Made by a program: the position numbers and the translations under genes. Below, piece by piece: positions 11,277-33,298 of a stretch of 64,000 nt of DNA; within the stretch, counting starts at the first letter, position 1, and every line of letters begins with the position of its first letter. This stretch comes from Emticicia sp. 21SJ11W-3. GTDB taxonomy: Bacteria; Bacteroidota; Bacteroidia; Cytophagales; Spirosomataceae. The notes below the pieces were generated by a model. The model made no database searches and was not told the origin of the DNA. It worked only from the letters and a program-made list of their open reading frames with translations. The DNA is taken from assembly GCF_024138715.1 (NCBI RefSeq), contig NZ_CP092074.1, positions 4,340,001-4,404,000 on the forward strand. Direction: 5' to 3'.

Positions 11277-12623
11277 ATGAAAAAATATCTTTTATTACTG
11301 ATACTGGCACTCCCAGGCAGTGGCTGTCAGGAATACCTGGATGCCAAACCGGACAAGAAACTGGCAGTCATTACCAGTGTGAAAGAAGCCCAAACGCTTT
11401 TGAACAATGTGAATATCTTGAATGGGGCTTATCCGTCGGCCGGACAGGTGGCTTCAGATGAATTTTATTTATTGACTGCCGACTGGCTGGCGGTGAATAC
11501 GGCATTGGAGCGCAATGCGTATATCTGGCAGGAAGAGGTATTCAATGAGAATCCACGCAATGACTGGTCTCTTTCTTATCAGAAAGTCTATTATGCCAAT
11601 CTGCTACTGGAGGGTTTAGCGGCAGGGCGAATCAAGGGCACTTTGGAGGAGACAAATTCGATTAAAGGACAGGCCCTGTTTTTCAGGGCTTATGCCTGCT
11701 ATCATCTGTTACAGATTTTTGCGCCGGCCTGGAATCGGCAGACGGCTGCAACTGATCCGGGAATCGCGCTGCGGCTTAGCTCTGACCTGAATGCCCCTAC
11801 CCTGCGTGCCAGTGTGGAGCAAGGTTACCGGCAATTAATTGAAGATGCCCGATCTGCCTCTGAGCTTTTATCTGTCGAATCATCCGTCAAGACCCGCCCT
11901 TCCAAGGTGGCTGCCTTTGCTTTGCTGGCCAGAGTATACTTGACTATGGGCGATTATCCAATTGCGCTTGAATATGCTGAAAAAGCATTGACTTACCGCT
12001 CTGTATTGATTGATTTCAGTACTTGCAATCCTGCCGCTGCTTTTCCTTTTCCGCTGTTTAATGAGGAGGTAATCTTCCATTCGCATATGAGTACACCGGC
12101 TCTATTTTATCCGTCTGTTTTGAAGGTGGATTCCTTATTACTCAAGTCCTATCAGACGGGAGATTTAAGGCCTCAACTGTTCTTTGGTTCTAATCCGGGT
12201 GGCAGTTTTCATTTCAAAGGGAGTTATGCCGGTTCTAATAATCTCTTTAATGGCCTAACGGTCGGAGAATTAATGCTGATTAAGGCGGAGTGTCAGACCC
12301 GTTTGAATCAGGTAACTCAGGCCGCCAGTACGCTCAATGCTTTGCTGCAAAAAAGATGGAAGGCCGATTTGTTTGCACCGGTGGTTGTTTCGGATGCTCA
12401 AAAGCTGTTGGATCTGGTGCTGGAAGAAAGAAGGAAGGAGCTTGTTTTCAGAGGATTGCGCTGGATGGATTTAAGAAGGCTCAATCTGGAGCCGGAACGT
12501 GCTGTTACAATCAGGCGTCTGGTCAATAATCAAATGTATGCCCTGGCACCCAATAGTGCCCGATATGTCTTCAAAATTCCTCAGGACGTGATAGCCGCTA
12601 CGGGGACTGCGCAGAATCCATAG
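11277..12623 (+). CDS. SusD/RagB-family substrate-binding lipoprotein
   Basis: A 448-residue outer-membrane lipoprotein that acts as the lid and ligand-binding partner of the SusC transporter encoded 11 bases upstream. The lipobox L-P-G-S-G-C places the lipidated cysteine at residue 17. Helical TPR-like core segments are visible (F-F-R-A-Y-A-C-Y-H-L-L-Q-I-F-A-P near 150, and F-A-L-L-A-R-V-Y-L-T-M-G-D-Y near 215-228). The SusD C-terminal block E-E-R-R-K-E-L-V-F-R-G-L-R-W-M-D-L-R-R-L follows, ending in the usual F-K-I-P-Q segment. Length is slightly below the usual 500-600. A convergent terminator follows directly. Confidence 0.93.
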   Translation: MKKYLLLLILALPGSGCQEYLDAKPDKKLAVITSVKEAQTLLNNVNILNGAYPSAGQVASDEFYLLTADWLAVNTALERNAYIWQEEVFNENPRNDWSLSYQKVYYANLLLEGLAAGRIKGTLEETNSIKGQALFFRAYACYHLLQIFAPAWNRQTAATDPGIALRLSSDLNAPTLRASVEQGYRQLIEDARSASELLSVESSVKTRPSKVAAFALLARVYLTMGDYPIALEYAEKALTYRSVLIDFSTCNPAAAFPFPLFNEEVIFHSHMSTPALFYPSVLKVDSLLLKSYQTGDLRPQLFFGSNPGGSFHFKGSYAGSNNLFNGLTVGELMLIKAECQTRLNQVTQAASTLNALLQKRWKADLFAPVVVSDAQKLLDLVLEERRKELVFRGLRWMDLRRLNLEPERAVTIRRLVNNQMYALAPNSARYVFKIPQDVIAATGTAQNP

Positions 12624-12649
12624 AAAAGGGTGGAACACGCCACCCTTTT
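12624..12649. terminator. Bidirectional intrinsic terminator between convergent operons
   Basis: Ten-base arms AAAAGGGTGG (12624-12633) and CCACCCTTTT (12640-12649) with a six-base loop. It sits exactly between the SusD stop and the stop of the convergent small-protein gene. A/T tails on both sides let it serve both directions. Confidence 0.85.
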
Positions 12650-12655
12650 GCTGAT

Positions 12656-12961
12656 TTAAAACTTGTAATTCAGTACCTGAACCGTGCCGCTCAGGTCCGG
12701 CTTTCCGGGATCGCCTTCAGGAGCCATGATAATGCATCTGACTGAGGTACTGTTCGGACAGTCCGGAATGCTCCCTGCCGGTTCGTAATTGTCTGCTACA
12801 CTTTCTCCCCCGCTTGTGTTAGGAATAAAATGCCACCTTAAAGTAGTCGTTCCGGTGGATTTAGTCATACGCTGTTCTTCCGCTAATTGAAACGACATAG
12901 TCGCCACTGAGAGCAGCAGGGCAAATCCCCAGAGCAAGTGTTTTTTTACAAATGTTTTCAT
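12656..12961 (-). CDS. Small secreted protein, DUF6520-like
   Basis: A 101-residue protein with a clean signal peptide (K-K-H-L-L-W-G-F-A-L-L-L-S-V-A, about 6-22). The short polar mature region contains two cysteines (P-D-C-P and R-C-I-I) and no catalytic motif. Small proteins of this kind, annotated DUF6520, occur next to MauE-like genes in Sphingobacteriales, and the next gene upstream here is MauE-like; the family name is given on that basis. Its start is 46 bases after the stop of that gene, so the two probably form an operon convergent with the TlpA-SusCD operon. Function is unknown. Confidence 0.7.
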   Translation of the reverse strand: MKTFVKKHLLWGFALLLSVATMSFQLAEEQRMTKSTGTTTLRWHFIPNTSGGESVADNYEPAGSIPDCPNSTSVRCIIMAPEGDPGKPDLSGTVQVLNYKF

Positions 12962-13007
12962 GATTTAAAAAAGTAAATGGTAAAAAAATAGAAAATATAG
13001 GATGCCT

Positions 13008-13457
13008 TTAGGCCGGCAAGCCCTTGGCAGTTTTGCTTCCTGCAGCCCTGCCTCGTTGTAGTTTTACTAGATAGAACCCTGCGGCACTTACGGCTGTAAA
13101 AAATAGGTTCAAGCAAAAGTGTTGTTGCCAGCTCAGTCCGCTGATGACGGAGCCACAGCCGCAAGGTAATTGTTCCCAGACTCCGGCCAGAGCCAGACCT
13201 ATGTAAGTAGTAAAGGCCGACATCAATCCCAGTGAAAGCCATATTCCATAATATCTCATGCTTGGAATCAAAAGAAATAATACGATGAGCATTTCCAGGA
13301 TTGGCAAAGTGTAGATCAGGATATGACCCCATGTGTCGCTGAAAGGTTGACGGAGTATACCTGCTTGAAAGGCTTCAAAATCTATGAGTTTATCCAAGGT
13401 AACGGGTATCCAGAGGGTCAGTAGCAGGAGAACCAGGAGCTTTAACTTCATAGGCAT
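13008..13457 (-). CDS. MauE/DoxX-like integral membrane protein
   Basis: A 149-residue protein with four predicted membrane helices (about 5-21, 46-64, 71-93 and 113-133). The cysteine-bearing loop L-P-C-G-C-G-S-V-I-S-G-L-S-W-Q between helices 3 and 4 is characteristic of MauE-type proteins. MauE homologues are membrane electron carriers that help form disulfides in periplasmic proteins. That fits the thioredoxin-fold protein encoded at 6776-8089 at the other end of this locus. A second in-frame ATG two codons downstream (13451) is an equally good start. It is followed by the small secreted protein gene. Confidence 0.8.
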   Translation of the reverse strand: MPMKLKLLVLLLLTLWIPVTLDKLIDFEAFQAGILRQPFSDTWGHILIYTLPILEMLIVLFLLIPSMRYYGIWLSLGLMSAFTTYIGLALAGVWEQLPCGCGSVISGLSWQQHFCLNLFFTAVSAAGFYLVKLQRGRAAGSKTAKGLPA

Positions 13458-13978: not shown

Positions 13979-14166
13979 AAGATAATATTCAGTTACCACT
14001 CTAAGAGAACGTCACACCGTTCCAATGTCCTGTAAAGTCTCCCTAAGTGTTGGATAACGTAAGAATAAATTTAAGTTTATTTATGAGACTTTTAGAAATC
14101 CACATACTATCCTGTTTCGAATTACGTAATCGAAATATTCAAAAGAAAATTTAAAGTGATCAAGCT

Positions 14167-14376: not shown

Positions 14377-17300
14377 TTAAGGATTGCTAACAGAATAAAT
14401 GAAAGTATCTGAAATTCCAGAAGAAAATGCATTAGATTTCCATTCTTTAGGCTTTATGTACCAACAATTATTAATTTTGTTTATTCCTGCAAAAATACTT
14501 GCGCAAACAGTTTGAATTTTAGACCCCGTTAATGCAATATCAAAATTGCACCCCTCCTGTAGGTAATATTTTTGGTAGAGACTCGTCATAGCTTTCAATA
14601 TCTCGTTTTGTTTATCTGCTTCTATATCAATAACCTCTGTTTCAAGAGATGAATATTTATCTTGAATTACTTTTGCAGATAATCTTGCCAATTGACTTCT
14701 ATAATCATTCTTATTAGGATTGATTATTAGTATTTTATCATATTGCTTATGATCCAAGAATGTCAACATTCTTTCAAATTTCGAAGAGCTAAAGCAAAGT
14801 ATTACACGTGAATTAGACTCATCTGTATCTGTTGAGTATATATTTTCAATAGTGTAAGGTTTCAACTCGCCTAATTCAATACTTTCCGTTACAGTTTTCA
14901 AAATTTCTGTTGCTTGCTCCTGATTGTTTACAATTTCCCTTAAATCCTCTTCTGATGGAGATAGGCTTTTTGCCTCTGTTTCCAAAATAACCATCTCATT
15001 TATACTTTTCTTAGCTTTAATAAGTAATCGGAATATCATAGATTTTGATAACCCAGATACGTCGATTATTGTTTTTAATGAATAGTCTATCTTATCTATT
15101 TCCTCTATGTCCAATATAGAAATTTCTTTGCTTGATTTATCTAGAGTCTGCTTTATATCATTAAACCTACCTTCTTCTAATTTATGTTTTATTGCATATA
15201 TTTTAGAAATATTAGGATTGTCAACAACCTTATTTAATGATTCATAAGTTCTATCTTCAAAACCTATACCCAAAACATATTGTTTACAACCATTAAGTAA
15301 CCTATCACTAAAAGGATATTTACTCATGACAATTTGATTCTCCGAAACAAAGAAGTTTTCAATTTCTTTGTTTTCTTGTTTAGAATTGAGAAAATCTAAA
15401 GTAGCTTGCGAACCTGTATTTCTCTTAACTTCATTAAAACCATAAGAAGTCTCATCAGAATCACCATTATCAATAATCTTATTCTTTAGCAATATACTCT
15501 CTCCTTCCTGAGGGTTTTTTAACCATGCTTCCAACTCAGAACCACTTAACTCAAATCTGTCGGATTGGGAAATACCTATAAAATTAGTTAAGCCTAATAA
15601 TTTTCTAAAAGCTAATTTGAACTGTAATAAAGGATTTGTATCATTTCCAGTGGTTCTGGGAGCTTGGGGACTTCCATCATATATGAAAATTCCTGCGTCT
15701 ACCAAACTTCTTAATTTGTCAATTTGGAATTCCTGGTCTCCTGAAGTAATTTTCACATATATAGAATTATATTGCCTAAGTCTTTCGGAGCCTTTAGATT
15801 CCATAAGTAGCTTGTATGAAGCTCTGGCAAAGGTCAGCGCAAAATCTTTTAAATCATTCTTATTTCGATCCAAATCAAATAACTTATTTGCGCTAACATT
15901 TTGATAAACTCTGTTTTGTATTTCTACCTTCAAAGGGGTATGAAGACTACTCTTATATTCCTCTAACATCAAGTTATAAATATGTATGATATCTCCGATA
16001 TCCCCTACACATACTTTAGAAAGCATTGTGACACCGTGATAAAACTGCTTCTTATTTTTCTTGTTTGCACCTGTCTTGGTTATATTAAGTGCAATTTCTT
16101 TAAGTGATGTATCTCCTAAAAGGTTTCCAGGATGGGGATAATTATTAGAATCTTTAGAAAGGAGTTTATTTCTTTTCTCCAAAATGTCGACTACGAAATT
16201 TTTATTATTTCTAATCTGTTCATTAACTAAATTTCCCAAATCAAATGTTTGTAAATCTCTTCCTATTCTTGTTTTTTCCTGATTTCCGGGAGAAAAAAGA
16301 ATAGCATTTAATGTCTGTGCCTCTGTAGTAATTTTAAAAGCACATTTAGAACTTTGGAAAATAAATGTTGAAATAATCTGTATTATATTTTCCTGATTCA
16401 GATACCTTGTAGATACATCGTCTAACAAATAATATATCTTATGATTTAACAATATCGGACTACAATTTGTAATAGCGGTAGAAAGATCCTCAAACGTTGC
16501 AGGTGCAGCAGTGGAAATTGAAATTTCATTCCCTTCATTTTTTTCTAATAAATTGATTTTCTTAATTAAAATATCCTCCACCTCTTTATCAGAATTAATT
16601 GCAGGTATGTCAATATTACTAACCTTTGAGTTTATTTCATTTGTTAAGGTTTCATAATAAAAGTCTCCAACTGAATTGTCGTCTATTTTCTTTAACGTTC
16701 TTAAAGTTCTCAACGCTTCTAAGGAAAACCTTAAATATATCCTTTCAAGTGGTTTATATATCTTTTCGTCCTTTTTACCAACAACATCTAATAACTTATT
16801 TGCATTGATATATAACCCTATAAATCGGTCATTTACAACCCTCTCAATAATTCCTAAAGAACCTTTTCTTGAATATTCATCAGAGTTGGAAGAGCTAATA
16901 CGAGAATAAAAAGTTAATCCTAATAATAATATAGTTTTCCCACAACCTCTCATTCCATAAATAATAAGAGGTCCAGGTTTTACAGATTCATTAAAGAATT
17001 TGTTGTCCGGGTCTACAAAAATAGCAGGAACATAATTTGGTTTTAATGATTGCGCATTGTATGCATAATCAAAACTTTTAAGTGTAAAAGTTTCATTCCA
17101 CGGATCTACAACATGCCGGTAAGTACTTTTTATATCATAGATAAGATCATCAAACTTTGGCAGCCTTGTACTGATAATTTTTTGACTTAACAGTTTGCCA
17201 TAATTTTCAAAATGTGAAAGTATCCGGCTTTCTTTATCTGTCAATTCTTCTTTATTATCTTCCTTTCTTGCTATAAATCGCTTAGATAAATCCTGAATAC

Positions 17301-17979
17301 TTTTCCCAATCCAATTTATATCACCCAATCTTGTTTCTGAGCTCTGTGTTCTGTCAGAAGTTGAGTTTAAGTCTATAACTATTAATCTTATTGAATTATC
17401 GATCTGATCAACTCTTTTGGTTCCTTGACTAAGATTTGAAACCAAAATATTTCCAGGATGTAAATCATTATGGCTTTTACCATTATTTTTTAATACTTCA
17501 AGGATTTCCAATAAGTCTATAACTATTTGAGTTAATCTTTCAATAGAAATATCAGATTCCATTTCTTTTTTTAACGGACTGCCTTCCACATAGTCAAGTA
17601 CACAAACATGACAAGGAATAATAGTGCCGTTAAAATCAACATCTTCATCAAAATAGTCATGAATTTCAACTATATGCTCATTTTCAAGTTGTGAATGCTG
17701 GTTACATTCATTTTCGAAATTCTTACCAAATAATTCATAAATTCCTTTTGGAATGACTTTTAGAACCCTCTTTTTGGGTATTCTTTCCTTAGAAGTTGCC
17801 ATGTATGTTGCTCCATAAAATCCTCTCGCAATAGATTTTTCTAGTTTAAATCCGTTTACTTCTGCAGGATGCAAATCAAGAGGGAACCCATAATTCATTC
17901 CACATTTTGGACACTTTTCAGACAGTTCTTTTTCGGAATAGTCTTTTTGAGGACATTTAAAACAACAGTACTTATCCAT
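14377..17979 (-). CDS. Zinc ribbon / protein kinase / P-loop NTPase fusion, last gene of conflict island
   Basis: A 1200-residue multidomain cytoplasmic protein. Residues 6-26 form a zinc ribbon (C-x2-C and C-P-K-C). A protein-kinase-like domain follows: glycine loop A-R-G-F-Y-G-A-T-Y near 50, lysine in R-V-L-K-V-I-P near 73, catalytic loop H-N-D-L-H-P-G-N at about 168-176, and I-D-L-N-S in place of DFG. A P-loop NTPase comes next, with Walker A G-M-R-G-C-G-K-T near 340 and Walker B Y-Y-L-L-D-D-V near 515, of STAND/ORC type. The last 300 residues include G-I-G-F-E-D-R near 903, then I-D-V-S-G-L-S-K-S-M and finally A-L-T-G-S-K-I-Q-T-V. The last two have the look of Rossmann-fold ligand loops of the CARF sort, a weak inference. 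It starts two bases after the thymidine-phosphorylase-like gene. It may be the sensor or effector of the system. Confidence 0.82.
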   Translation of the reverse strand: MDKYCCFKCPQKDYSEKELSEKCPKCGMNYGFPLDLHPAEVNGFKLEKSIARGFYGATYMATSKERIPKKRVLKVIPKGIYELFGKNFENECNQHSQLENEHIVEIHDYFDEDVDFNGTIIPCHVCVLDYVEGSPLKKEMESDISIERLTQIVIDLLEILEVLKNNGKSHNDLHPGNILVSNLSQGTKRVDQIDNSIRLIVIDLNSTSDRTQSSETRLGDINWIGKSIQDLSKRFIARKEDNKEELTDKESRILSHFENYGKLLSQKIISTRLPKFDDLIYDIKSTYRHVVDPWNETFTLKSFDYAYNAQSLKPNYVPAIFVDPDNKFFNESVKPGPLIIYGMRGCGKTILLLGLTFYSRISSSNSDEYSRKGSLGIIERVVNDRFIGLYINANKLLDVVGKKDEKIYKPLERIYLRFSLEALRTLRTLKKIDDNSVGDFYYETLTNEINSKVSNIDIPAINSDKEVEDILIKKINLLEKNEGNEISISTAAPATFEDLSTAITNCSPILLNHKIYYLLDDVSTRYLNQENIIQIISTFIFQSSKCAFKITTEAQTLNAILFSPGNQEKTRIGRDLQTFDLGNLVNEQIRNNKNFVVDILEKRNKLLSKDSNNYPHPGNLLGDTSLKEIALNITKTGANKKNKKQFYHGVTMLSKVCVGDIGDIIHIYNLMLEEYKSSLHTPLKVEIQNRVYQNVSANKLFDLDRNKNDLKDFALTFARASYKLLMESKGSERLRQYNSIYVKITSGDQEFQIDKLRSLVDAGIFIYDGSPQAPRTTGNDTNPLLQFKLAFRKLLGLTNFIGISQSDRFELSGSELEAWLKNPQEGESILLKNKIIDNGDSDETSYGFNEVKRNTGSQATLDFLNSKQENKEIENFFVSENQIVMSKYPFSDRLLNGCKQYVLGIGFEDRTYESLNKVVDNPNISKIYAIKHKLEEGRFNDIKQTLDKSSKEISILDIEEIDKIDYSLKTIIDVSGLSKSMIFRLLIKAKKSINEMVILETEAKSLSPSEEDLREIVNNQEQATEILKTVTESIELGELKPYTIENIYSTDTDESNSRVILCFSSSKFERMLTFLDHKQYDKILIINPNKNDYRSQLARLSAKVIQDKYSSLETEVIDIEADKQNEILKAMTSLYQKYYLQEGCNFDIALTGSKIQTVCASIFAGINKINNCWYIKPKEWKSNAFSSGISDTFIYSVSNP

Positions 17980-17981
17980 TC

Positions 17982-19145
17982 TTAATCTATTGCTATAAAA
18001 TTGTTCAATTCGTTTTTAAAGTATTCCAAATCATCTTCAAGAACTCTATAAGTCAAAACTGTTTCATTTTCTAAAATATTTTCATTTTGATTTTTAAAGA
18101 AAATTAATCCGCAAGGATCCGGGAATTCTTGATCACTGTTTATATATTTATTTTGGATCTTGACAATGGCACCTCTCATTTTCATAATATCAAATTTAAG
18201 CTTACCTGATTTTTTAGCTGAGAACTCATATATATGTGAGTTTTTTATCTTTTTCGCAATATTTTCAAAAGATGTGAAACTTCCTCCCTGAAAAACGATA
18301 TTTTCTGTAAAGTTTTTTATAATTATCCTTTTTAACTCTGATTTTTCTATCTTTTTACCAGTGAGAGTTCGAACCATTTCGTTACATTCAAGCTCAATAT
18401 GATGATTCAGCCAATTGTTCTTACTGCCCGAAAGATATTCATGAATTGCCAATAAGGATTCTCCTCGTCCTATATATGGCTGAAACAATTTAGTATTATC
18501 TGAAAAATAAAATGTGCTATTTATATCCAGTAAACTACTCAATTGTTTGAAATTATAAGAAAGATTTTTTGCTTCCTCCAAAGAACTCCCAAAGTTTCCG
18601 AAATGCGAATAGCGAATATCTAGACATAAATTTTTGATATCTACGGCAACTTTTTTAGACAATAAACTTGCAATTACTAATCCTGGAACACTCTTGAAAC
18701 CATTTTCACTTCTATATTTAAAAAGTCTACTATCTAAAGGGGCAAACTGATTGTTTGAAATAAAATGACAATATTGCGTTTTGTCAATCATCTCATAAAT
18801 TTGCTTCTTAGAAAGCTTTAAATTATATCCTTCGATTTGAGCCAAAACATCAATACCTCCTGCAGGTCTTCCAACTATTCCTAGTTTGGGAACAGAAAAA
18901 TACTCTTTAAGAATTAATGGACTAATAATAGTAGACAACGACGATGGTCCTCCAGTAGAAGGGATGTCAGCTGTGCTGTAATTAGGAAATTTTAAAGTTT
19001 CACCACTCTGAGCTAATATCTTAGTTAATTTTAAGATTTGATTTTCATCAAATTGTGATTTTTTGATAACCGAACATATTTTTTTTATTTCCAAATCGGA
19101 AATTTCATTATATTGTCGATTAAAACTTAAATCAAAAAAACTCAT
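17982..19145 (-). CDS. Thymidine/pyrimidine-nucleoside phosphorylase homologue in conflict island
   Basis: A 387-residue protein homologous to DeoA-type phosphorylases, seen as a colinear run. I-S-D-L-E-I-K-K-I (15-23) and L-A-Q-S-G-E-T-L (44-51) come first, then D-I-P-S-T-G-G (60-66) in place of D-K-H-S-T-G-G, V-G-R-P-A-G-G (91-97) in place of the longer G-R-G-L-G-H-T-G-G, and F-A-P-L-D-S-R-L. R145, S160 and K164 have the same spacing as the pyrimidine-contacting R171, S186 and K190 of the E. coli enzyme. The phosphate-binding lysine (K84 there) is isoleucine here, and the phosphate-side glycine loop is about three residues shorter. It may thus bind a pyrimidine nucleoside or nucleotide without ordinary phosphorolysis. 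It lies between the receiver-domain gene and the kinase-NTPase gene with 2-5 base gaps, so it is part of the same operon. An ordinary salvage role is unlikely in this context. Confidence 0.75.
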   Translation of the reverse strand: MSFFDLSFNRQYNEISDLEIKKICSVIKKSQFDENQILKLTKILAQSGETLKFPNYSTADIPSTGGPSSLSTIISPLILKEYFSVPKLGIVGRPAGGIDVLAQIEGYNLKLSKKQIYEMIDKTQYCHFISNNQFAPLDSRLFKYRSENGFKSVPGLVIASLLSKKVAVDIKNLCLDIRYSHFGNFGSSLEEAKNLSYNFKQLSSLLDINSTFYFSDNTKLFQPYIGRGESLLAIHEYLSGSKNNWLNHHIELECNEMVRTLTGKKIEKSELKRIIIKNFTENIVFQGGSFTSFENIAKKIKNSHIYEFSAKKSGKLKFDIMKMRGAIVKIQNKYINSDQEFPDPCGLIFFKNQNENILENETVLTYRVLEDDLEYFKNELNNFIAID

Positions 19146-19150
19146 TCCAT

Positions 19151-20782
19151 TTATATTTTAACAAAATCAACTCCAACTCTGATTGGGTAAGAAAAAGCAT
19201 GATTTGCTATTCTTTGGGTATAATTAGGTCTTATTGTTCCCAAATAAGTCAACTTTTCACTTTTCGTGATTCCTTTTTTATCTAAATAATGTACCCTTAT
19301 CTGATTGTCTCCATTAATAAGATTCTCCTCTTCGAACACTTTATACTGAATAGGTTTGATGTATATTGGGCTATATTTTTGTTGATTTTCGTCTTGAGCA
19401 ATGTCTGACCATAATATAGTCACATTATTAGATAAATAACTAATAAATGCGGTTTCTCCCAAATCAAGTGCAATATTAATCTTAACAGGTCTTCCTTCTG
19501 CAAAATAATAATTACTCTTAATCTTATCTTGAGGTCTTAAACAATCACAGAGAGCAGTTAAACATATAAGATATTTGGGCTTTTCTTTGTGGTTTTCGTT
19601 TTCTTCCATTAAAAATACATCGCCAAAATTGATTGTTTGACCAATCTTGTTTAAATAAAAAGAATTATAGAAAACATTCATCCTATGCAACGCTCCAAAA
19701 TCATTGTAATCTTTTCCAAACTTTGATTCAAATTCATCCAGTAATTGATCATCCAGTAACAATGATTTTCTATCACGAAGAGACATTGAAATCTTTTCCA
19801 ATAATATTTCGTCTATGAAATTCTTAAAAAAATGTCCAATTTCTATTTCCTTTAATTTTTTACGATGATAAATTAATGCATCTTTTGGAAAGGACATTAT
19901 TGAATCATTTGTTATTGCACTTGTTCTGAAAAGATGATTATATAATTCAATTCCTAATAATTGATTATAACTTTCTACATCATTTATAATGTGATTTTTG
20001 AAATTCTCCAAAAGTACATCAGCTTGGTTTTTATCTTTATTCAAAATAGTAATGATAGTATTATTGATTACTATTATTTTATCGTTTGGATTAATGTAGC
20101 TTGGACAATATAATTTTGTTTCCGATTTATGTGTAGGCAAAAGAGAAATCGAAGATCTTATTATAGCACAAGTGTCATCTTGTTCCCCTGTAATTTCATT
20201 TAGTTTTTTTACGATTTCTTTATCTTGTCTATATATTTCGCCTCTTAATCTTCTAACTTCTTTTAAGTTTGACCTATTAATATTAATCTGATGGAAAATG
20301 TCATTTAACTGTGAAGGATACTCTTCAAGCTCTATTTGTTCTTTTACTATTTGATAATATTCTTCAGTCTGGCTAGAGAAAAAAGAGATTAAATTATATA
20401 ATACATTGTCTATATCATTGTCCGAAGTGTAGATTGAACAAAAGTTAATATGCTTTGTATTTATTACCTTATCTAAAATTTTTAATGATAATAATTCTCC
20501 ATCCTTTCCTTCCAGCTTCCAATCTAATATTACAAAATCCCGATTATCAATAATAAAATTTAATTCATTCGGATTGCTTTCCGCACCATTTTCAAATTTA
20601 TAGACCTCTAGCGATATTCCATTTTCTTTAAAGTTTTTATATAAATTTTGAGACAGTTCTTCCTCAGTAAAATTTTCAGGAATTGAAACATCTTGATAGA
20701 AAGCTTTTGCTTTCTCATCAATATAAATGGCTGATTTTATTGAATCTTTTAAAATTATATGCGCACGTTCTTCAAAAGTCAT
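19151..20782 (-). CDS. Protein with divergent N-terminal response-regulator receiver domain
   Basis: A 543-residue protein. The first 130 residues fit a receiver domain: acidic pair D22-E23 after strand A-I-Y-I, the probable phospho-acceptor D87 in F-V-I-L-D-W-K-L, and the T/S pair after strand F-C-S-I-Y-T-S near 119-120. The loop before the third strand is longer than usual. The remaining 400 residues have no DNA-binding helix-turn-helix and no motif I recognise. They contain a helical segment (about 150-200) and a C-terminal beta-rich part. The gene follows, with a four-base gap, the one encoding a histidine-kinase-like GHKL protein, so the two probably form a two-component pair whose output is the unknown C-terminal region. 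It is not a classical transcription regulator. Confidence 0.72.
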   Translation of the reverse strand: MTFEERAHIILKDSIKSAIYIDEKAKAFYQDVSIPENFTEEELSQNLYKNFKENGISLEVYKFENGAESNPNELNFIIDNRDFVILDWKLEGKDGELLSLKILDKVINTKHINFCSIYTSDNDIDNVLYNLISFFSSQTEEYYQIVKEQIELEEYPSQLNDIFHQININRSNLKEVRRLRGEIYRQDKEIVKKLNEITGEQDDTCAIIRSSISLLPTHKSETKLYCPSYINPNDKIIVINNTIITILNKDKNQADVLLENFKNHIINDVESYNQLLGIELYNHLFRTSAITNDSIMSFPKDALIYHRKKLKEIEIGHFFKNFIDEILLEKISMSLRDRKSLLLDDQLLDEFESKFGKDYNDFGALHRMNVFYNSFYLNKIGQTINFGDVFLMEENENHKEKPKYLICLTALCDCLRPQDKIKSNYYFAEGRPVKINIALDLGETAFISYLSNNVTILWSDIAQDENQQKYSPIYIKPIQYKVFEEENLINGDNQIRVHYLDKKGITKSEKLTYLGTIRPNYTQRIANHAFSYPIRVGVDFVKI

Positions 20783-20786
20783 AATG

Positions 20787-23693
20787 TTATGAATTGGGTA
20801 TTATAACAAAGCAAGCTCCGTTTAGTATATTATAGGATTCCTCATTGGTTGCATAAATATCAAATCCAGATTCATTTAAACTTTGTTTCGCTAAATATAA
20901 TCCAATACCTCTGCCGCTACTGCGATTTGAATAAAATAGATCGAAAATTTTAGACAATCTATGTTCTTCTATTTTTTGTCCAGAATTAAGAATGATTATT
21001 TGATTTTTTGCTTTTAGATAATCAAAATGTATTTCTTTAATCTCTACATTTTTCATCCAAAAAAAAGCATTATTAACGATATTTATTATAACAGTATATA
21101 ATACAGGTTCTTTAATACGAATAATATGATTCATAAAAGAATCGCTTACAACAATATCTATTTTTTCTTCAGTTAGTTTTCTGTCAAAAAAATCCTTTAC
21201 ATACCTTATAATTTCAGAGCACTTTATATCCTTACTTATAGCAGAATTAATTCTATATAGTGGAGATAATAAATCATACTTTTCTTCAAGACTTCTAAAG
21301 GTTTTTTCCAAAAGTTGGTAATCGTAATTTTTCGCTATCCCATTTTCTTCGTCCAATTTTTGAAGTAATCGATTGATTCTAGAGTATAATATATTAAATT
21401 CGTGATCAATAATCTCAACGGCAATTCCCAATTGTGCAGTATCCTGAACTTGGTTCCACTGATTTCTCATTCTATCATATTCAGTTTTATAAGCACCCTG
21501 CAATAACTCTTCATCAATATCAAAACTCATTCTATTGATATGATTTACCAACGGAATTAATGTTTCATTTAATGTATTCTTTAATTCATCAAATTTCTTT
21601 TTGATTTCCTCAGACTGTTTTTGAATATCGTTTTTTGTAAATATTGAATCTAAAGCGACCTTCTTTACATCACCAAATTCCTTTAATGCAGATTCGGAGC
21701 GGTTATTATATTCCCTAAGTAATGTGTTTACCTTTGACTTTAAAATTTCAAAATTATCATAGATAAGGGTTTCCAACTCTCCTTTGTAAACGTCAATACT
21801 TTTTGTGAAATTTATTTTCAAATCTCTTAACTCTGCTTTTTCAGCTACTTTAACCATTAAAGCGGCACTATTCTTTTTAATATTGTTATTAAACGAATGA
21901 ATCTGATCTTCGTATTTATTTAACCTATCCAATTGTAAATCAGTTGGCTCATATCTTTTAGGAATAGAAGGAAGAAGATTTTCAAATTCAACATCTAATT
22001 TGTGCAATCTTTCCAGGATATTTTCTATTTCCGAAAAAGCAACATTAGTGTCTTCAATTTTTTGTGCCAATAGCTCTAATAAGGAAGAATATTCTTTTTC
22101 GTATTTATTAAACTTATCAGGATAAGCATTTAAAGATCTACTGAATGCTTTTTTCTCTTCTGTTTCTCGTTTTTTATCTGATTCTATAGCTTCATTTCGT
22201 TTATTCAATATTTTTTTCTGATCCAAGAAAATCGATTGTTCAGCCTTATCCGAGAAAAAATCTTTGGCTACTTGAATAAAGAATGCAATTAAATCCGATT
22301 CAAATGCTCTATATGGATCATTGGAAATCAAACCTTCACGACTGGATTTATCTTTAAGATCAGGGTTTTTACTTCTGCTTAATTCCAAATAACCGAACAT
22401 TCTACGGTAGGAGAAATAATAGGTACCAATTCTTTTATTTCTACGCTCTTCAAATTTTAAAAAATCTGCATTAGGTCGTCCGTAAGGCAATACTCTAAAC
22501 TCATCTCTAAAAATATAAAGCCCCCCGTTTTTGGTTACCTTATCGTTTATTTTTTTGAAAGCATTATCGCTAAGCATAGAGTCTTTTCTGTCACCTTGAC
22601 TATAACCTAGTTTAATAGGTATTTCTCCATAAAAATTTTTCGCAAATTTTCTCCTAGTGGTTTTATATTCATATGGAATTAATTTGTCATAAATTTTTAA
22701 ATCTCCTTTAAAATTACCGTTCCCGTCAAATTTTCCGTCAATTAAAACATCCGCAGAATTATAATCATCTGCGGTAAAAAAATTTCCTTCTCCGTTTATA
22801 ATCTCTTTGTCTTGACCTAAAACTTCGTGGATATAAAAAGAAGTATTTACAAGTCGATTGTTTTCTTTAAAAGGGTTTACAAATCCAGATAAACTGGATA
22901 TTGTAAATTCTCGTCCTTCACTGTTATCTTCTTCTTTATTTTCTTCAGCCAGTTCTAAAATTTGATCTATAGGTTCAAATATTAAAAATTTTGTACCGTG
23001 ACTTTCTTTAATATCAAGTAAATTAGTAAATAAAACATCAATTAATTCTTTTGTTAAACGAGAATTTAAAACAGATTTTAATATTTTGCTTCTCAGTTCC
23101 AGCTGTTTCTGTTCCCATATCGGATTTCCTTCACCATCCCTCTCTTTCTTAAAATTTTGGAGAAAGGAAATTTTTAATTTATAAAAAATATCTCTGATGT
23201 TGGAAATGGTTGTTAAATCTTCAACAGGAATATTTACATCATCTAAAAATAAATTAAAGTTTTCGAGTAACCTCCAATCAAAAAACAAAAGTTGAACAGG
23301 GTGTCCGATTTTTTTTGTAATCATTAGCATCGGATAGCCCAAATATGCTACGGACAATCTTCCTATACCCTTTTCCCCAGCTTTAACTCTTGCTTTTTTC
23401 CAAAGAGTTTCTTCATCCTCTAGTTGTTCTAATTCTGCTCGACTTTTTGAATCTGTTCCTAACACCAACCATTTCTCTAAAATATCCTTTTTAGACATTC
23501 CCTTTCCGTCATCAGTAATTAAAAATAATGAAGAAGGTAAATTTCTAAATTCAACTTTAAAGATTTCTGCAGTTAAATTATCAGCATATGCGTCATAACC
23601 GTTTTTCCATAATTCGGTAATGGCTGTAGGTAAATCAGCAATTTGCCCTTTACCCAGTAAATCCACAGCTCTGGCTTTTGTTCTAAACTGCAT
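20787..23693 (-). CDS. Double-GHKL ATPase: MORC/MutL-like N-terminus, histidine-kinase-like C-terminus
   Basis: A 968-residue protein with two ATP-binding modules. The N-terminal one has the N box E27-x3-N31-x2-D34, D-D-G-K-G at 61-65 and G-E-K-G-I-G-R-L at 106-113, as in MutL, MORC and Hsp90-type ATPases. A long coiled coil (about 470-740) follows. The C-terminal module looks like a sensor kinase: H box L-G-I-A-V-E-I-I-D-H-E-F-N with the possible phospho-acceptor H764, N box I-V-N-N-A with N874/N875, a degenerate G1 (L-N-S-G) and G2 S-G-R-G-I-G-L-Y near 922. There are no membrane segments, so it would sense something in the cytoplasm, such as DNA ends or modification state. It overlaps the methyltransferase gene by 11 bases and is followed by the receiver-domain gene. 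GHKL ATPases next to Dcm/Vsr are known in modification-linked conflict systems; the added kinase half is the unusual part. Confidence 0.85.
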   Translation of the reverse strand: MQFRTKARAVDLLGKGQIADLPTAITELWKNGYDAYADNLTAEIFKVEFRNLPSSLFLITDDGKGMSKKDILEKWLVLGTDSKSRAELEQLEDEETLWKKARVKAGEKGIGRLSVAYLGYPMLMITKKIGHPVQLLFFDWRLLENFNLFLDDVNIPVEDLTTISNIRDIFYKLKISFLQNFKKERDGEGNPIWEQKQLELRSKILKSVLNSRLTKELIDVLFTNLLDIKESHGTKFLIFEPIDQILELAEENKEEDNSEGREFTISSLSGFVNPFKENNRLVNTSFYIHEVLGQDKEIINGEGNFFTADDYNSADVLIDGKFDGNGNFKGDLKIYDKLIPYEYKTTRRKFAKNFYGEIPIKLGYSQGDRKDSMLSDNAFKKINDKVTKNGGLYIFRDEFRVLPYGRPNADFLKFEERRNKRIGTYYFSYRRMFGYLELSRSKNPDLKDKSSREGLISNDPYRAFESDLIAFFIQVAKDFFSDKAEQSIFLDQKKILNKRNEAIESDKKRETEEKKAFSRSLNAYPDKFNKYEKEYSSLLELLAQKIEDTNVAFSEIENILERLHKLDVEFENLLPSIPKRYEPTDLQLDRLNKYEDQIHSFNNNIKKNSAALMVKVAEKAELRDLKINFTKSIDVYKGELETLIYDNFEILKSKVNTLLREYNNRSESALKEFGDVKKVALDSIFTKNDIQKQSEEIKKKFDELKNTLNETLIPLVNHINRMSFDIDEELLQGAYKTEYDRMRNQWNQVQDTAQLGIAVEIIDHEFNILYSRINRLLQKLDEENGIAKNYDYQLLEKTFRSLEEKYDLLSPLYRINSAISKDIKCSEIIRYVKDFFDRKLTEEKIDIVVSDSFMNHIIRIKEPVLYTVIINIVNNAFFWMKNVEIKEIHFDYLKAKNQIIILNSGQKIEEHRLSKIFDLFYSNRSSGRGIGLYLAKQSLNESGFDIYATNEESYNILNGACFVIIPNS

Positions 23694-24774
23694 TATTATA
23701 GTTTTGTATTATAGCTTTTCCTAAAGCCGTTGCATACTTAGGAGGTACTGCGTTACCAATCATTCTCGCAATATTTGCAACACTTGTTCCTTTAAATTTA
23801 TAGGTTAATGGAAAGGATTGCAATGTGGCACCTTCTCTTAAAGAAAGGGCTCTGTCTTCCTCTGGATGAACAAATCTACCATTAGAAATACTAAAAAATT
23901 TTGTTGTAATTGTCGGCGAGGGTCTATTCCACCATAGCCGTCCGAATGTGTCTTTAAAAGATTCCTCATTCCCTTCAAAACACTTCAATTGTAACTCTGG
24001 ATCATTTGCAAATCCAAGTCTATTACCTCCATCCTTTTTTACCTTTTGCAGCCTTTTTTTGTTGATATCACTGATATTAGTAGCTGTATGAAGAAAATCA
24101 GTTTTATCTTTATGTCCAGGTTCTATTTTAGGGAAACCTTTATCCGTTCCTAAAACATCTTTTACAACAGCTTTTTTGCCTTCCAATTCCAAAGGCTTGA
24201 TTTCATCCTGAGAAATTCGAGTTGCGATTAAAGTAAACCTTTTACGACTTTGCGGAACACCATAATCATTTACATTATGTACTTTGAAATGTGGATTTTC
24301 ATATCCATTATTTTTCAGCCATTCAATAAAGTCATTTAAACCGCTTTCTTCTTTTCTTCTCAAAACACCAGGAACATTTTCGACAACCACATATCCTGGA
24401 CGGAAATATTTTACAAAACGTGAGAATTCTGCCAAAAGATTTTTTGACTTAGCTGACTTTGTTTTATCTGTATTAATGATGCTCCAAAACTGACACGGAC
24501 TACATCCTATCAATACAAGTTCATTATCATTCCTTTTTAAGGACAACTTTTGTTCAAGTTCTTTTTCTTTCAGATCAAATACATCAGCGTGGATAAATTC
24601 TGCTCCTTTTATATTGGCTTCATAAGTTGTTTTACAATTTTCATCAAAGTCAATTCCGGCAATAATTTGAATTCCTGCTTCCTGCATTCCAAAACTCATA
24701 CCACCACCAGAACAGAAGAAATCCACTGCCTTTAATTTGTTAGAATGATGTATATATTCGTTTTTCTTTTTCAT
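23683..24774 (-). CDS. DNA (cytosine-5-)-methyltransferase, Dcm-like
   Basis: A 363-residue C5 methyltransferase that transfers a methyl group from S-adenosylmethionine to cytosine in a specific DNA site. Motifs are in canonical order: I F-F-C-S-G-G-G-M-S-F-G (19-29), IV I-G-C-S-P-C-Q with the catalytic Cys in P-C-Q (about 93), VI V-V-E-N-V-P-G-V (about 137), VIII Q-S-R-K-R-F-T-L-I-A (about 185), IX S-L-R-E-G-A-T-L-Q-S-F-P and X I-G-N-A-V-P-P-K-Y. The target-recognition region between VIII and IX is of normal length but does not reveal the site. It lies nine bases after the Vsr gene and overlaps the GHKL gene. No restriction enzyme is inside the operon; the nearest candidate is at 25919-26458. 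Confidence 0.96.
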   Translation of the reverse strand: MKKKNEYIHHSNKLKAVDFFCSGGGMSFGMQEAGIQIIAGIDFDENCKTTYEANIKGAEFIHADVFDLKEKELEQKLSLKRNDNELVLIGCSPCQFWSIINTDKTKSAKSKNLLAEFSRFVKYFRPGYVVVENVPGVLRRKEESGLNDFIEWLKNNGYENPHFKVHNVNDYGVPQSRKRFTLIATRISQDEIKPLELEGKKAVVKDVLGTDKGFPKIEPGHKDKTDFLHTATNISDINKKRLQKVKKDGGNRLGFANDPELQLKCFEGNEESFKDTFGRLWWNRPSPTITTKFFSISNGRFVHPEEDRALSLREGATLQSFPLTYKFKGTSVANIARMIGNAVPPKYATALGKAIIQNYNNAV

Positions 24775-24783
24775 ACTTCAAAA

Positions 24784-25212
24784 TCAATTTCGAAATTGGT
24801 CTTGTATGTTTCTTAAAATATTTTGTAAAGTTTGGTCTTGGTTATTCTTTTTTAATTCACATCCATAAACTACCAGAACATTCCAGTCTTTATTTTTTAA
24901 TTTTACAATGTTCTCTTTATCTCTTTTTTTGTTTCCATCAATTTTCTCTGACCAAAACTCCTCTCTTGTTTTTGGTAATGTTGCATATTTACAACTTTCG
25001 TGCCCATGCCAAAAGCATCCGTGAATTAGAATTACTGTTTTATATTTAGGTAATATTATATCTGGCTTTCCCGGAAGTCTTTTGTCATACAATCTGTAAC
25101 GTAAACCTTTCCCAAACAAAAATTTTCTAACTAAAAGCTCAGGTTTTGTATCCTTCCCTTTTACTTGACTCATATTAAAGCTCCTAACTTCCTTTGAATG
25201 GATATCTGCCAT
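24784..25212 (-). CDS. vsr: Very-short-patch repair endonuclease (Vsr)
   Basis: A 142-residue nicking enzyme that cuts 5' of the thymine in T:G mismatches arising from deamination of methylated cytosines. The frame is open up to 25365, but the ATG at 25210-25212 is chosen because the protein then begins M-A-D-I-H-S-K-E-V-R-S-F-N-M-S, as family members do, and the extra 51 residues have no family match. Motifs present are S-Q-V-K-G-K-D-T-K-P-E, the catalytic Asp in P-G-K-P-D-I-I-L, H-G-C-F-W-H-G-H and the final F-W-S-E-K-I-D-G-N-K-K-R-D. It is the first gene of the six-gene run and partners the adjacent cytosine methyltransferase. Confidence 0.93.
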   Translation of the reverse strand: MADIHSKEVRSFNMSQVKGKDTKPELLVRKFLFGKGLRYRLYDKRLPGKPDIILPKYKTVILIHGCFWHGHESCKYATLPKTREEFWSEKIDGNKKRDKENIVKLKNKDWNVLVVYGCELKKNNQDQTLQNILRNIQDQFRN

Positions 25213-25365
25213 TATTCTTCTCTTTTCGTAGATATTAAAAACTTTCTTACATTCTACATCAGAATCAGAGTCCTCTGCTATATAATAATGTTTCAACCGA
25301 TGATTGCCTTGCATTATTACACAATTGAGAAACAGTTGCCTGATTCTTAACAAGTTTTTCTCCAA

Positions 25366-25918
25366 ACCATTTGTTCTTTTTGTTTAGCTTAGCCAAAACC
25401 ACCCTAATTTTATTTAGTTCTTTTGAAGCCACAACTCTTTATGTTATAGGCAAAAATATACAAAAATTCGCAAATAATATTGAGTATCTTTTAATAGGAT
25501 AAGTCCACATAATATACATTGACTCAATGATTTTGAAAATATACAATTAGTGATAAGAAAGAGGGATGAATAACTTCTTGGCATTCATCCCAAAAGAAAA
25601 AAAAGAAAAAAGAAAGCCTCTCTGTAAACGGATATAAGAACCTGAAGCACAATAACTCACGAATGAAGGCGGAGTCGTTATGAATCTGCATTTATCATTA
25701 TCCGTTATATTTATAATATTGAGACGATTAAAATAGAATAAATTTGTCTCGAATTATATTTGTCCATTTTTCTGACATGTTCTAAAATACGTTAACTCAA
25801 GGCAAATTTGAGATTAAAAAGACTTGTAAACAACAAAAGCATAGCCGCAAAATTACAACTCAGGCTTTAAATGAGAAGTTGTAATTTTTCGAGTTACAAT
25901 AAAATATTAAATAATTTC
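25366..25918. other. Intergenic region upstream of the conflict island
   Basis: About 550 AT-rich bases with no supported gene. CAAAAATA at 25451-25458 is, on the minus strand, a TAnnTTTG-type promoter element directed toward vsr, but its upstream partner element is poor. A hairpin with 9-bp arms (GGGATGAAT 25563-25571, ATTCATCCC 25583-25591) is followed on the plus strand by a long A-rich run. That is the wrong orientation for a minus-strand terminator, so its role is unclear. Confidence 0.45.
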
Positions 25919-26458
25919 CTATTCATTATAAATATTAATTCCTCTTGAAAAAACTATTAGGCTATATGGTTGTACTCCGTTAAACTCATTACCAGTTTTT
26001 AAATCTATGAATAATCCCCATTTATAATTTAAATCTCTCTTTGTCATTTCTATTAGCTTTAAAAAATCCCAATCACGATCTGGCTTATTTTTATTCGTTG
26101 ATTTTTTCAGTTCAACGATAAGGTAGTTTGACTGGCTACTTGCATGATTATGAAAGATAAAATCGGGTAGAATCTCCTTTTTAATATGAGTTTGTCCATT
26201 TTCCCAATTCCTAGGCCAATATTGAATTGGTAATTTTTCAATTAAAAAATCAACTTCTTTATTTATTACGCTATTTCCTAAAATTCTCTTGTTATAATTA
26301 GAATTAATGTCAAGATTTAAATCTTGAAACTCTTTTTTAAAATAATGAAGTAACTCTGATGTCAAAGCTTCTTCATGTACATCTTGTATTATCAGACTCT
26401 TGTGGTCAATTATGAATTGGTTCAAGGCATTCTTGATGTTAGTTAGTAATTCATCCAT
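25919..26458 (-). CDS. Probable PD-(D/E)XK-type nuclease, hypothetical
   Basis: A 179-residue cytoplasmic protein that I cannot place in a named family. The segment E-I-L-P-D-F-I-F-H (about 95-103) followed some 12 residues later by Y-L-I-V-E-L-K-K (about 111-118) has the spacing of a PD-x(n)-E-x-K restriction-nuclease active site. An earlier acidic position is in N-K-E-V-D-F-L-I. The N-terminal half is helical. It lies on the same strand as, and upstream of, the Dcm/Vsr island, separated by about 550 bases. It could be a restriction partner of that methyltransferase or an unrelated neighbour. AT-rich like the island. Confidence 0.6.
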   Translation of the reverse strand: MDELLTNIKNALNQFIIDHKSLIIQDVHEEALTSELLHYFKKEFQDLNLDINSNYNKRILGNSVINKEVDFLIEKLPIQYWPRNWENGQTHIKKEILPDFIFHNHASSQSNYLIVELKKSTNKNKPDRDWDFLKLIEMTKRDLNYKWGLFIDLKTGNEFNGVQPYSLIVFSRGINIYNE

Positions 26459-26848: not shown

Positions 26849-27859
26849 CTAAACTCTGATATCATTTTCTCTTTTTTCAATCTCTTTTTTGATTTCTTCG
26901 ATCAGTTGTTGTTCTGTTGGTAAGTACAATTTGTATTCGCTGGCAATGATGGTTTTGTTATTTTCAGGCAACGAAATCTTGACTACAGCATTGTTTTTTT
27001 CGGCACAAAGTAAGATACCTATGGTGGGGTTTTCAAACTCTTTCTTTTCATAACGGTCGTAATAATTTACGTACATCTGTAATTGTCCTATATCCTGATG
27101 TGTAAACTTTGTGGTTTTTATCTCAATGATTACAAAGCATTGTAGAAGCCTGTTGTAGAATACAAGATCTATAAAGAACTCATCGCCTTCAATGTGCAAC
27201 CGTTTTTGCCTGGCCACAAAAGCAAATCCATTGCCCAGTTCCAGTAAAAAATCATGTAAGTGTGTAATAATGGCCTGTTCCAGATCTTTTTCATAGTAGG
27301 ACGCTTCCCGATGCAATCCTAAAAATTCAAGATACATGGGGTCTTTGATGATTTCCTTCGCATCTGAGGGTTGTTTTTCATTTCGTGCTACAGCCAACAC
27401 ATTTTCCCTGTCATTACTCATTAACAGACGCTCCCATAAACTACTATGGATTTGGCGTTCTAGCTGGCGGGTAGTCCAATTATTCTTTATGGCTTCAGCA
27501 ATATAAAATTCTCTTTGATCTTGACTATCCAGGCGCATTAACATTTTATAATGTGTCCAACCCAATTGCGAACGCAGTGCGTTCGCAATTGGGAATGTGC
27601 GGTAAAATTGCCGGAAAAGCTCTATCTGACGCTTAGAAAAACCGCTTCCGTACTCCGGTTCCAATTGTTCGGCTACAAATTTGGTCAGATAGTTGCCGTA
27701 ATCTGCCCGGTCTTTCCCTTGCTGTTCTTCTTCAAAAATACGCTGTCCGATCAACCAATACATCATAGTACGTTCGTGATCCACTGAACGAATGGCTTTT
27801 TCTTGAGCATTAAGAATGATGGCCTTGATGTCTGTTATGACAGATTGACTTATAATCAT
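26849..27859 (-). CDS. PDDEXK nuclease-domain protein, YhcG/DUF1016 family
   Basis: A 336-residue protein. The N-terminal DUF1016-N domain is seen in M-Y-W-L-I-G-Q-R-I-F-E-E-E-Q, Y-G-S-G-F-S-K-R-Q-I-E-L-F-R-Q-F-Y and L-G-W-T-H-Y-K-M-L-M. The C-terminal PD-(D/E)XK nuclease domain has F-F-I-D-L-V-F-Y-N-R-L-L-Q-C-F-V-I-I-E-I-K (acidic D and E-x-K). The ATG at 27857-27859 is preferred over an upstream one at 27925 because the protein then starts M-I-I-S-Q-S, without an unmatched 22-residue leader. YhcG-type proteins are predicted DNA endonucleases often carried on mobile DNA and near restriction systems. A 33-base perfect palindrome lies inside the gene at 27561-27593 and encodes N-A-L-R-S-Q-L. 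Confidence 0.9.
   Translation of the reverse strand: MIISQSVITDIKAIILNAQEKAIRSVDHERTMMYWLIGQRIFEEEQQGKDRADYGNYLTKFVAEQLEPEYGSGFSKRQIELFRQFYRTFPIANALRSQLGWTHYKMLMRLDSQDQREFYIAEAIKNNWTTRQLERQIHSSLWERLLMSNDRENVLAVARNEKQPSDAKEIIKDPMYLEFLGLHREASYYEKDLEQAIITHLHDFLLELGNGFAFVARQKRLHIEGDEFFIDLVFYNRLLQCFVIIEIKTTKFTHQDIGQLQMYVNYYDRYEKKEFENPTIGILLCAEKNNAVVKISLPENNKTIIASEYKLYLPTEQQLIEEIKKEIEKRENDIRV
27561..27593. repeat. Perfect 33-bp palindrome inside the DUF1016 gene
   Basis: Two 16-base arms, CCCAATTGCGAACGCA and its exact complement, flank a single central G. In the gene's frame it encodes the A-N-A-L-R-S-Q-L stretch between the conserved F-P and G-W-T-H-Y. The match is too long to be accidental and could form a cruciform or serve as a binding site. 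Confidence 0.85.
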
Positions 27860-28016
27860 GTGTCCTACGTTTAATTTTCCAAAATTACAAAAAGTTATAG
27901 GGTGTCCCTTTAATAAGAATATCAATATTCCGCTTGCTCGTGAATACTGTTTGTTTCATTCATTACTTCTAGTAGCTGAATAGTCAGCTTAAACCTGACT
28001 ATTCAGCTATAAAATA

Positions 28017-28604
28017 TCATTTGGAAATGATTTGATTATTTCCTTCAGCCAGTTCTTTTTCTGAATTGATATAGGCCTTCTCCATCAGCTTTTTCACTTC
28101 TTTGCCGTTATTGTTATATAGATAGTCCCAAGACTTTTTTATTCTATCATTTTCAATCATCTGCATTTTAATTTCTTTTTGATTGTCGCTGTAATGGATA
28201 CCCCACTTATAAAGATTGGTCAGGAACAGCATAATAACCAGCCACAAAAACCAACGGCCGAAAATAACCTTGTAGAATAGTTTGGCATCCTGTTCAGGAA
28301 ATAGCAGTATCTGAAATTTTCTGACAATACTTTTCGGCTGTGTGCCGATCATCAGTTTTACATCGGTTAATCCCTTATATATCATTTGCTGAATAGGTTC
28401 AGTATCGACTGTTACCGAAACGGCTTTGGGGTTGTCCAGTTCTCTCTTAAAATCATCAAGCTTGCTGCCAATGGTGTTGACAGCAGCAATCAGATCGTTC
28501 ATGGTTTGGTTAGTGGTTTTCTGTTCCTGGGTAAATTCTTCCAGCACCAATCCCAATATTTCTTTTTCGATCGCTTCGTATTTATCTGCAGTATTCATAA
28601 TCAT
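28017..28604 (-). CDS. Mobilization-module membrane protein, hypothetical
   Basis: A 195-residue protein with a helical, partly coiled-coil N-terminal region (about 1-100) and one membrane helix at about 118-133 (W-F-L-W-L-V-I-M-L-F-L). A charged C-terminal tail follows. There is no enzymatic motif. It starts eight bases after the relaxase stop, so it belongs to the mobilization operon. Proteins with this layout commonly follow relaxase genes in Bacteroidota mobile elements, but their role is not known to me. An alternative start is the ATG two codons downstream. Confidence 0.7.
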   Translation of the reverse strand: MIMNTADKYEAIEKEILGLVLEEFTQEQKTTNQTMNDLIAAVNTIGSKLDDFKRELDNPKAVSVTVDTEPIQQMIYKGLTDVKLMIGTQPKSIVRKFQILLFPEQDAKLFYKVIFGRWFLWLVIMLFLTNLYKWGIHYSDNQKEIKMQMIENDRIKKSWDYLYNNNGKEVKKLMEKAYINSEKELAEGNNQIISK

Positions 28605-28612
28605 GCATTTTA

Positions 28613-30006: not shown

Positions 30007-30076
30007 CTTTATCCTCTTTCTTTTTGAATGCAATAGCATGAAAAAAATCTTTCACCGAATGCGGTAGCATGAGGTG

Positions 30077-33207: not shown

Positions 33208-33298
33208 GTTCGTAGTGTTTTTATGAAACAGCACATGCAAATAAAAAAATAACAGCCAATTTTTCAAATGGCTGTTATAGATATTATAGAGGTATAGA

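Follow-up and report, generated by a model that had tools for sequence, protein, structure and literature searches.

A C5-methylase/Vsr phosphorelay module, a divergent phosphorylase homologue and a CARF6-type kinase in one putative operon of Emticicia sp. 21SJ11W-3

A six-gene island, which is probably directed against viruses, was analyzed in a 64,000-nucleotide stretch of the genome of Emticicia sp. 21SJ11W-3 (NZ_CP092074.1, positions 4,340,001 to 4,404,000; hereafter the window). Judged by sequence comparison, the island consists of two described units and one odd gene: a four-gene phosphorelay module encoding a C5 cytosine DNA methyltransferase (Dcm), a Vsr endonuclease, a histidine kinase-like protein (HK) and a receiver protein; a kinase-AAA-CARF protein; and, as the odd gene, a divergent homologue of nucleoside phosphorylases whose catalytic site seems to be lost. 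In our best reading, to which we give an even chance, the published C5-methylase/Vsr/HEF_HK/Response_reg_2 module occurs here in a variant form whose position behind the receiver gene is filled by the phosphorylase homologue and by a CARF-kinase-ATPase. All six genes would then make up one operon, in which the methylation-linked phosphorelay acts on a putative nucleoside sensor or adaptor and on a CARF kinase.

Layout and composition of the six genes

All six open reading frames are intact and lie on the minus strand between 14377 and 25212, with intergenic gaps of 9, −11, 4, 5 and 2 bases in transcription order (Table 1). The coordinates and gene order given in an earlier description of the window, made from its letters (the original prediction), were right. 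For vsr, an in-frame TTG start extends the reading frame to 25365. The G + C content at third codon positions (GC3) was 0.21-0.25 for all six genes; it was 0.39-0.45 for four genes at 26849-30039 and 0.46-0.50 for three comparison genes beyond the low-GC block (SusC-like, SusD-like and sulfatase). Codon use of dcm, the receiver gene and the phosphorylase homologue correlated with that of the kinase gene at 0.92-0.94.

In the comparison with PADLOC proposed in the original prediction, protein models matched three of the six proteins (kinase, methylase and Vsr); for the phosphorylase homologue, the receiver and the HK, no PADLOC family was found at E 0.1. As for a cognate restriction endonuclease, as expected of type II restriction-modification, Vsr was the sole nuclease match among the six using Pfam, and a PD-Lambda-3_A-like protein and a DUF1016 protein are encoded nearby.

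Table 1. Positions of the six genes and of adjacent features in the window
Feature	Position	Strand	Matches and remarks
Zn ribbon / Ser-Thr kinase / ORC-CDC6-like AAA / CARF6 protein, 1200 aa	14377..17979	-	PADLOC PDLC01925, 1179 bits over 1-1198; PF24389, PF00069
Divergent thymidine/pyrimidine-nucleoside phosphorylase homologue, 387 aa	17982..19145	-	TIGR02644, 115 bits, below cut-off of 409; PDB 3h5q, 1.9e-16
Response_reg_2 receiver protein, 543 aa	19151..20782	-	PF19192, 6e-28, 98.6 bits vs cut-off of 27
paraMORC-like HATPase_c_3 + HEF_HK + HATPase_c histidine kinase-like protein, 968 aa	20787..23693	-	PF13589, PF19191, PF02518
C5 cytosine DNA methyltransferase (Dcm), 363 aa	23683..24774	-	PF00145, 5e-55; TIGR00675, 130.7 bits vs cut-off of 100.65
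vsr, very-short-patch endonuclease, 142 aa	24784..25212	-	PF03852, 4e-34; TIGR00632, 139.5 bits vs cut-off of 97.85
Short XRE-type helix-turn-helix frame adjoining vsr on its upstream side, apparently truncated	25265..25432	-	48% identity over 50 aa to L075/L076 frame
179-aa protein, weak PD-Lambda-3_A relative, possible neighbour outside the operon	25919..26458	-	PADLOC, 3.2e-12; GC3 0.24
DUF1016/YhcG PD-(D/E)xK nuclease	26849-27925	-	PADLOC PDC-S02, 471 bits

The phosphorelay module and its relatives

Following alignment of nine HK sequences, residues His764, N871, N875, G927, R928, G929 and G931 were found to be invariant, as were D22 and Asp87 of the receiver (Asp87 in nine receiver proteins). 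The methylation-linked phosphorelay inferred in the original prediction agrees with these residues, and the island is probably of a defence type. The C5 methyltransferase carries the PCQ and ENV motifs, as verified by a motif check and in invariant alignment columns. The C-terminal output region of the receiver (residues 387-537) gave no Pfam match above cut-off in the window protein; residues C407, C412, D413, R535 and G537 were invariant in 12 diverse sequences. A structure model of the receiver, obtained with 12 sequences, was searched against the PDB without a match at E 0.001 or better, receiver domains such as 3lte and 1srr being among the weak matches.

A HEF_HK/Response_reg_2 module with 91.6% linkage of histidine kinase and response regulator over 644 regions, surrounded by C5 methylases and Vsr, is described in the main text of Bellieny-Rabelo (2021, PMC8011034), where HNH_2 is the best-represented nuclease near the module and signalling is speculated to control restriction-modification (R-M) systems. 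GHKL ATPases of the paraMORC type had earlier been tied to DNA methylases and Vsr within R-M loci, as outlined in PMC2292703.

Of 395 genomes searched in the phylum, nine scored above cut-off for Response_reg_2, that of Emticicia sp. 21SJ11W-3 included. The eight other genomes were used, and eight further genomes below cut-off were left out. The resulting comparison set comprised 25 other HK loci, namely 8 genomic loci, 3 of 4 matching plasmid records and 14 viral contigs. The fourth plasmid record, which covers 18% of the HK protein, was left out, as were two phage records that match the HK in part. L075 is nearly a duplicate of L076, and contigs such as L080 end close to the locus, so that independent complete loci number fewer than 25.

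Using tblastn, Dcm was detected in all 25 other HK loci, Vsr in seven (L056, L067, L068, L072, L074, L075 and L076) and HNH, with two HNH queries, in three. The nearest loci (L053, L054, L057 and L058) shared 53-59% identity in the HK, 64-79% in Dcm and 33-64% in the receiver. What stands behind the receiver gene varied. HNH_2 follows immediately in L053 and L056, and in L058 it lies one gene beyond the receiver on the opposite strand, giving three of the eight same-phylum loci. The position is taken by vsr in L075 and L076 and by Dcm in L067 and L072, and in L065 and L066 the order Dcm-HK-receiver has no close gene after the receiver on that strand. This position may serve as an "effector slot". 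The XRE-type frame upstream of Dcm in L075/L076 continues further than its counterpart in the window.

The last two genes and their genomic setting

The phosphorylase homologue showed sequence similarity to the DeoA family across nearly its full length. Residues R171, S186 and K190 of E. coli DeoA, which we take to be the pyrimidine site, are kept as R145, S160 and K164. DeoA residues K84, H85, S113 and T123, presumably the phosphate site (K84, S113 and T123) and its His (H85), correspond to I61, P62, G89 and G97. For R115 the homologue has no equivalent residue; because the alignment is gapped around S113 and R115, the loss of those two is alignment-dependent. Aligned family members L062 and L063 keep K84, H85, S113 and T123, and L062 itself lacks R171. 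The nucleoside-binding role assigned in the original prediction would fit the kept base-site residues, and ordinary phosphorolysis is unlikely from these replacements. A thymidine salvage gene was considered and judged unlikely because the phosphate site, retained in L062 and L063, is lost.

At 1e-12, three of the 345 genomes searched in the class gave a match, namely the own genome and two with 23-25% identity; at 1e-15, 1 of 390 genomes of the order did so. Plasmid matches consisted of seven records at 21-22% identity. A scan of viral contigs yielded no relative, its narrow pattern making this a weak negative. None of the sampled genomes contained a close relative.

The last protein was matched end to end by the PADLOC family CARF6--CARF_STK_AAA (PDLC01925; STK, serine/threonine kinase). 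Its family is described as a Zn ribbon, a kinase and an AAA+ domain with a P-loop arginine, followed by CARF and a winged helix-turn-helix, in the account given by Makarova (2014, PMC4012209). The window protein contains a GMRGCGKT P-loop and a CPKCG Zn ribbon, and the P-loop G-x-R-GCGKT was present in all four proteins compared, the window protein included. With a two-sequence profile of the protein, PknG was matched over positions 8-189, Zn-ribbon part included. In PADLOC, the kinase domain scored higher with PD-T4-6 kinases (52.1 bits) than with mad6 (39.5) and PglW (22.3). A homologue on a Loktanella plasmid scored 1752 bits with PDLC01925 vs 1179 for the window protein, which is thus the more distant member; the C-terminal part of the Loktanella protein gave weak matches to CARF_Card1 (E 0.02) and Csx1/Csm6 (E 0.0071).

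Relatives of the kinase-AAA-CARF protein are rare among the genomes and plasmid records searched. At E 1e-20, the own genome was the only one among 390 of the order, and at E 1e-30 or better the own genome and G078 were found among 296 of the phylum; the protein was present in 1 of 11 genomes of the genus and in one plasmid record among 72,556 at E 1e-8. At E 0.001, 89 of the 296 phylum genomes and 6 of 14 control genomes matched, nearly all over the kinase domain; except for the own genome, G078 and G259, all rows of the 89 genomes fall in positions 1-233 and were not counted as family. The viral-contig scan detected no relative and the genome-contig profile scan a kinase-domain match only, both weak negatives owing to a narrow pattern.

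A DNA methyltransferase gene was nearby in each of the three other CARF6-type loci. On the Loktanella plasmid (L032), a C5 methylase is encoded about 0.9 kb downstream of the kinase, together with a NaeI-type nuclease, and a metallophosphoesterase upstream; the latter, at L032:15587-17020, carries a Pua-like domain. In L059 and L060, an N6/N4 methylase gene adjoins the kinase gene upstream; L060 has one gene for the kinase-AAA part and another for the CARF part.

The region that holds the island varies within the genus. All 11 genomes searched in the genus matched the sulfatase gene (31747-33267), and 1 of 11 matched the stretch 11277-13457. The distance from the sulfatase gene to a conserved block was about 12.5 kb in G692 and G693 vs about 37.6 kb in the own genome; a third same-genus stretch (G687) ends before the left block. 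In the own genome, tRNA-Pro (ggg) lies by the left boundary of this variable stretch (L091:14239-14313). In G693, tRNA-Pro (ggg) lies inside the corresponding stretch, and none is found in that of G692. No second copy of either tRNA-Pro end was found in the 84 kb searched, and a 14-base match to the tRNA-Pro 3′ flank at 14026-14039 may be due to chance. By reading, a serine-recombinase-like frame (L091:14215-15840) overlaps the tRNA-Pro gene, and transposase-like frames were recognized in translations at window positions 2679-3842 (two pieces) and 4514-5845. The mobilization genes and the IS relic that the original prediction places beside the island are likewise putative, being recognized from translations. 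No exact Bacteroidetes-type promoter pattern was present between 25213 and 25918.

Proposed function, rival explanations and known systems

From the genes, domains, residues and operon layout described above, we infer the following course, defence included. Dcm would mark host DNA, and the T:G mismatches that arise when 5-methylcytosine is deaminated would be repaired by Vsr. For the HK, analogy with its family suggests that the paraMORC-type GHKL half would clamp DNA with ATP and sense non-host DNA. The HEF_HK half would then autophosphorylate at His764, Asp87 of the receiver would accept the phosphate, and the receiver activated in this way would engage the phosphorylase homologue. The latter would bind a pyrimidine nucleoside or nucleotide, probably without phosphorolysis, and the kinase-AAA-CARF protein, thereby released, would phosphorylate host proteins, so that growth stops. 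A more specific version, which we hold to be rather improbable, is a nuclease-free R-M system: the GHKL clamp would read methylation, and the phosphate relay would act through a pyrimidine-nucleoside sensor of ex-phosphorylase fold, its ligand perhaps thymidine or 5-methyl-deoxycytidine from attacked DNA, on the CARF kinase.

Several results weigh against a single driven operon. Neither the phosphorylase homologue nor the kinase-AAA-CARF protein was detected by tblastn in any of the 25 other HK loci, and neither the phosphorylase homologue nor the HK in any of the three other CARF6 loci; the recurrent clusters of all six genes expected in the original prediction were thus not encountered, and the case for functional linkage therefore comes from the layout of the operon and its composition, as seen in one genome. 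In codon use, vsr (0.78) and the HK gene (0.80) correlate less with the kinase gene. The modelled output region of the receiver is of low confidence (mean predicted local distance difference test score, pLDDT, 50). Loss of catalysis in the phosphorylase homologue would be read from a single sequence that has no close relatives, and its single-sequence structure model (pLDDT 33) was left unused. Finally, the C-terminal 321 aa of the kinase protein match PDLC01925 (222.5 bits) and no stand-alone CARF6 model.

As the full six-gene set was seen only in the window, and in none of the other loci searched (25 HK loci and 3 CARF6 loci), the stacking of two independent systems, a Dcm-Vsr-HK-receiver module and then a pair of phosphorylase homologue and kinase-AAA-CARF protein sharing only a transcript, is a serious rival, although somewhat unlikely in our estimate. 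It agrees with the separate occurrence of the units (the HK module without the pair in 25/25, CARF6 without the module in 3/3), with L065 and L066, where nothing more is attached to Dcm-HK-receiver on the strand in question, and with further nuclease-like genes in the island. Gaps of just 5 and 2 bases and a composition that matches across the junction speak for one unit instead, and the other CARF6 proteins are likewise methylase-linked. Alternatively, the locus might be an ordinary modification-repair locus or selfish modification element, in which Dcm acts with Vsr, the GHKL/receiver pair regulates the methylase and the accessory genes have no defence role. The repair of deaminated 5-methylcytosine by Vsr is known, and signalling control of R-M is what the main text of PMC8011034 speculates on. 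This reading appears unlikely in view of the large, intact kinase-AAA-CARF protein, whose matches are known or candidate defence families, and of the location in a genus-variable region.

A metabolic role, overlapping with the single-operon explanation, would make the phosphorylase homologue an active enzyme on nucleosides, through which a pyrimidine nucleotide is depleted upon receiver phosphorylation, as ATP is by the purine nucleoside phosphorylase (PNP) of Detocs. The presence of a histidine kinase, a receiver and a nucleoside phosphorylase homologue in one operon recalls Detocs as presented in PMC11249213, and the pyrimidine-base residues are kept. Set against this, DeoA residues K84, H85, S113, R115 and T123 are all replaced or missing, the protein has no PF01048 match and its sequence family is that of DeoA, making such an enzyme unlikely.

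Should the single methylation-linked operon hold, an R-M-linked HEF_HK phosphorelay and kinase-AAA-CARF proteins in one operon give each other a testable partner and raise the question of whether a CARF kinase is controlled by His-Asp phosphotransfer. If the phosphorylase homologue, whose phosphate site is lost, proves a true sensor, it would be a new kind of defence-locus component.

The original prediction matched the six-gene set to no defence system. The full set was indeed new within what was searched, but four of the genes constitute a published module and the last protein is a full-length member of the described CARF6 family, both of which had been missed. In the literature searched, neither the six-gene set nor the pairing of a phosphorylase and a CARF kinase came up, supplements and the CARF classification paper (gkaa635) lying outside the search. 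With the HEF_HK/Response_reg_2 module (PMC8011034), the island shares Dcm, Vsr, the HATPase_c_3-HEF_HK-HATPase_c protein and the receiver, key His and Asp kept; HNH_2 is the nuclease best represented around the module as published, and no HNH match was obtained with Pfam among the six proteins here, and phosphorylase, CARF, STK and AAA have 0 occurrences in the main text of that paper. Common to the window protein and the CARF6 kinase-AAA-CARF family, as far as it is described in PMC4012209, are the full-length match and the P-loop arginine, and the window member differs by its operon with a phosphorelay. Compared with DeoA (TIGR02644), the window homologue keeps the base site, lacks the phosphate site and H85, and scores below the curated cut-off.

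MADS and BREX with PglW are systems that pair a methylase with a kinase. The window kinase domain resembles mad6 and PglW; the phosphorylase homologue, the receiver and the HK match no PADLOC component. The island does not carry the set of mad proteins by this comparison: the kinase domain matched mad6, Vsr matched only its own family, and for the methylase the comparison covered the best 25 of 60 families.

According to the account in PMC11249213, Detocs is a defence system of the two-component type with three genes, and its PNP effector cleaves ATP. Membership was rejected because none of the six proteins matched PF01048 at E 1. The island resembles Detocs, as portrayed in PMC11249213 and PMC10952713, in combining a phosphorelay with a nucleoside phosphorylase homologue, and differs in that its phosphorelay is tied to a DNA methylase and a PF01048 PNP domain is lacking. 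The likeness to Detocs is one of shared plan, not of kinship.

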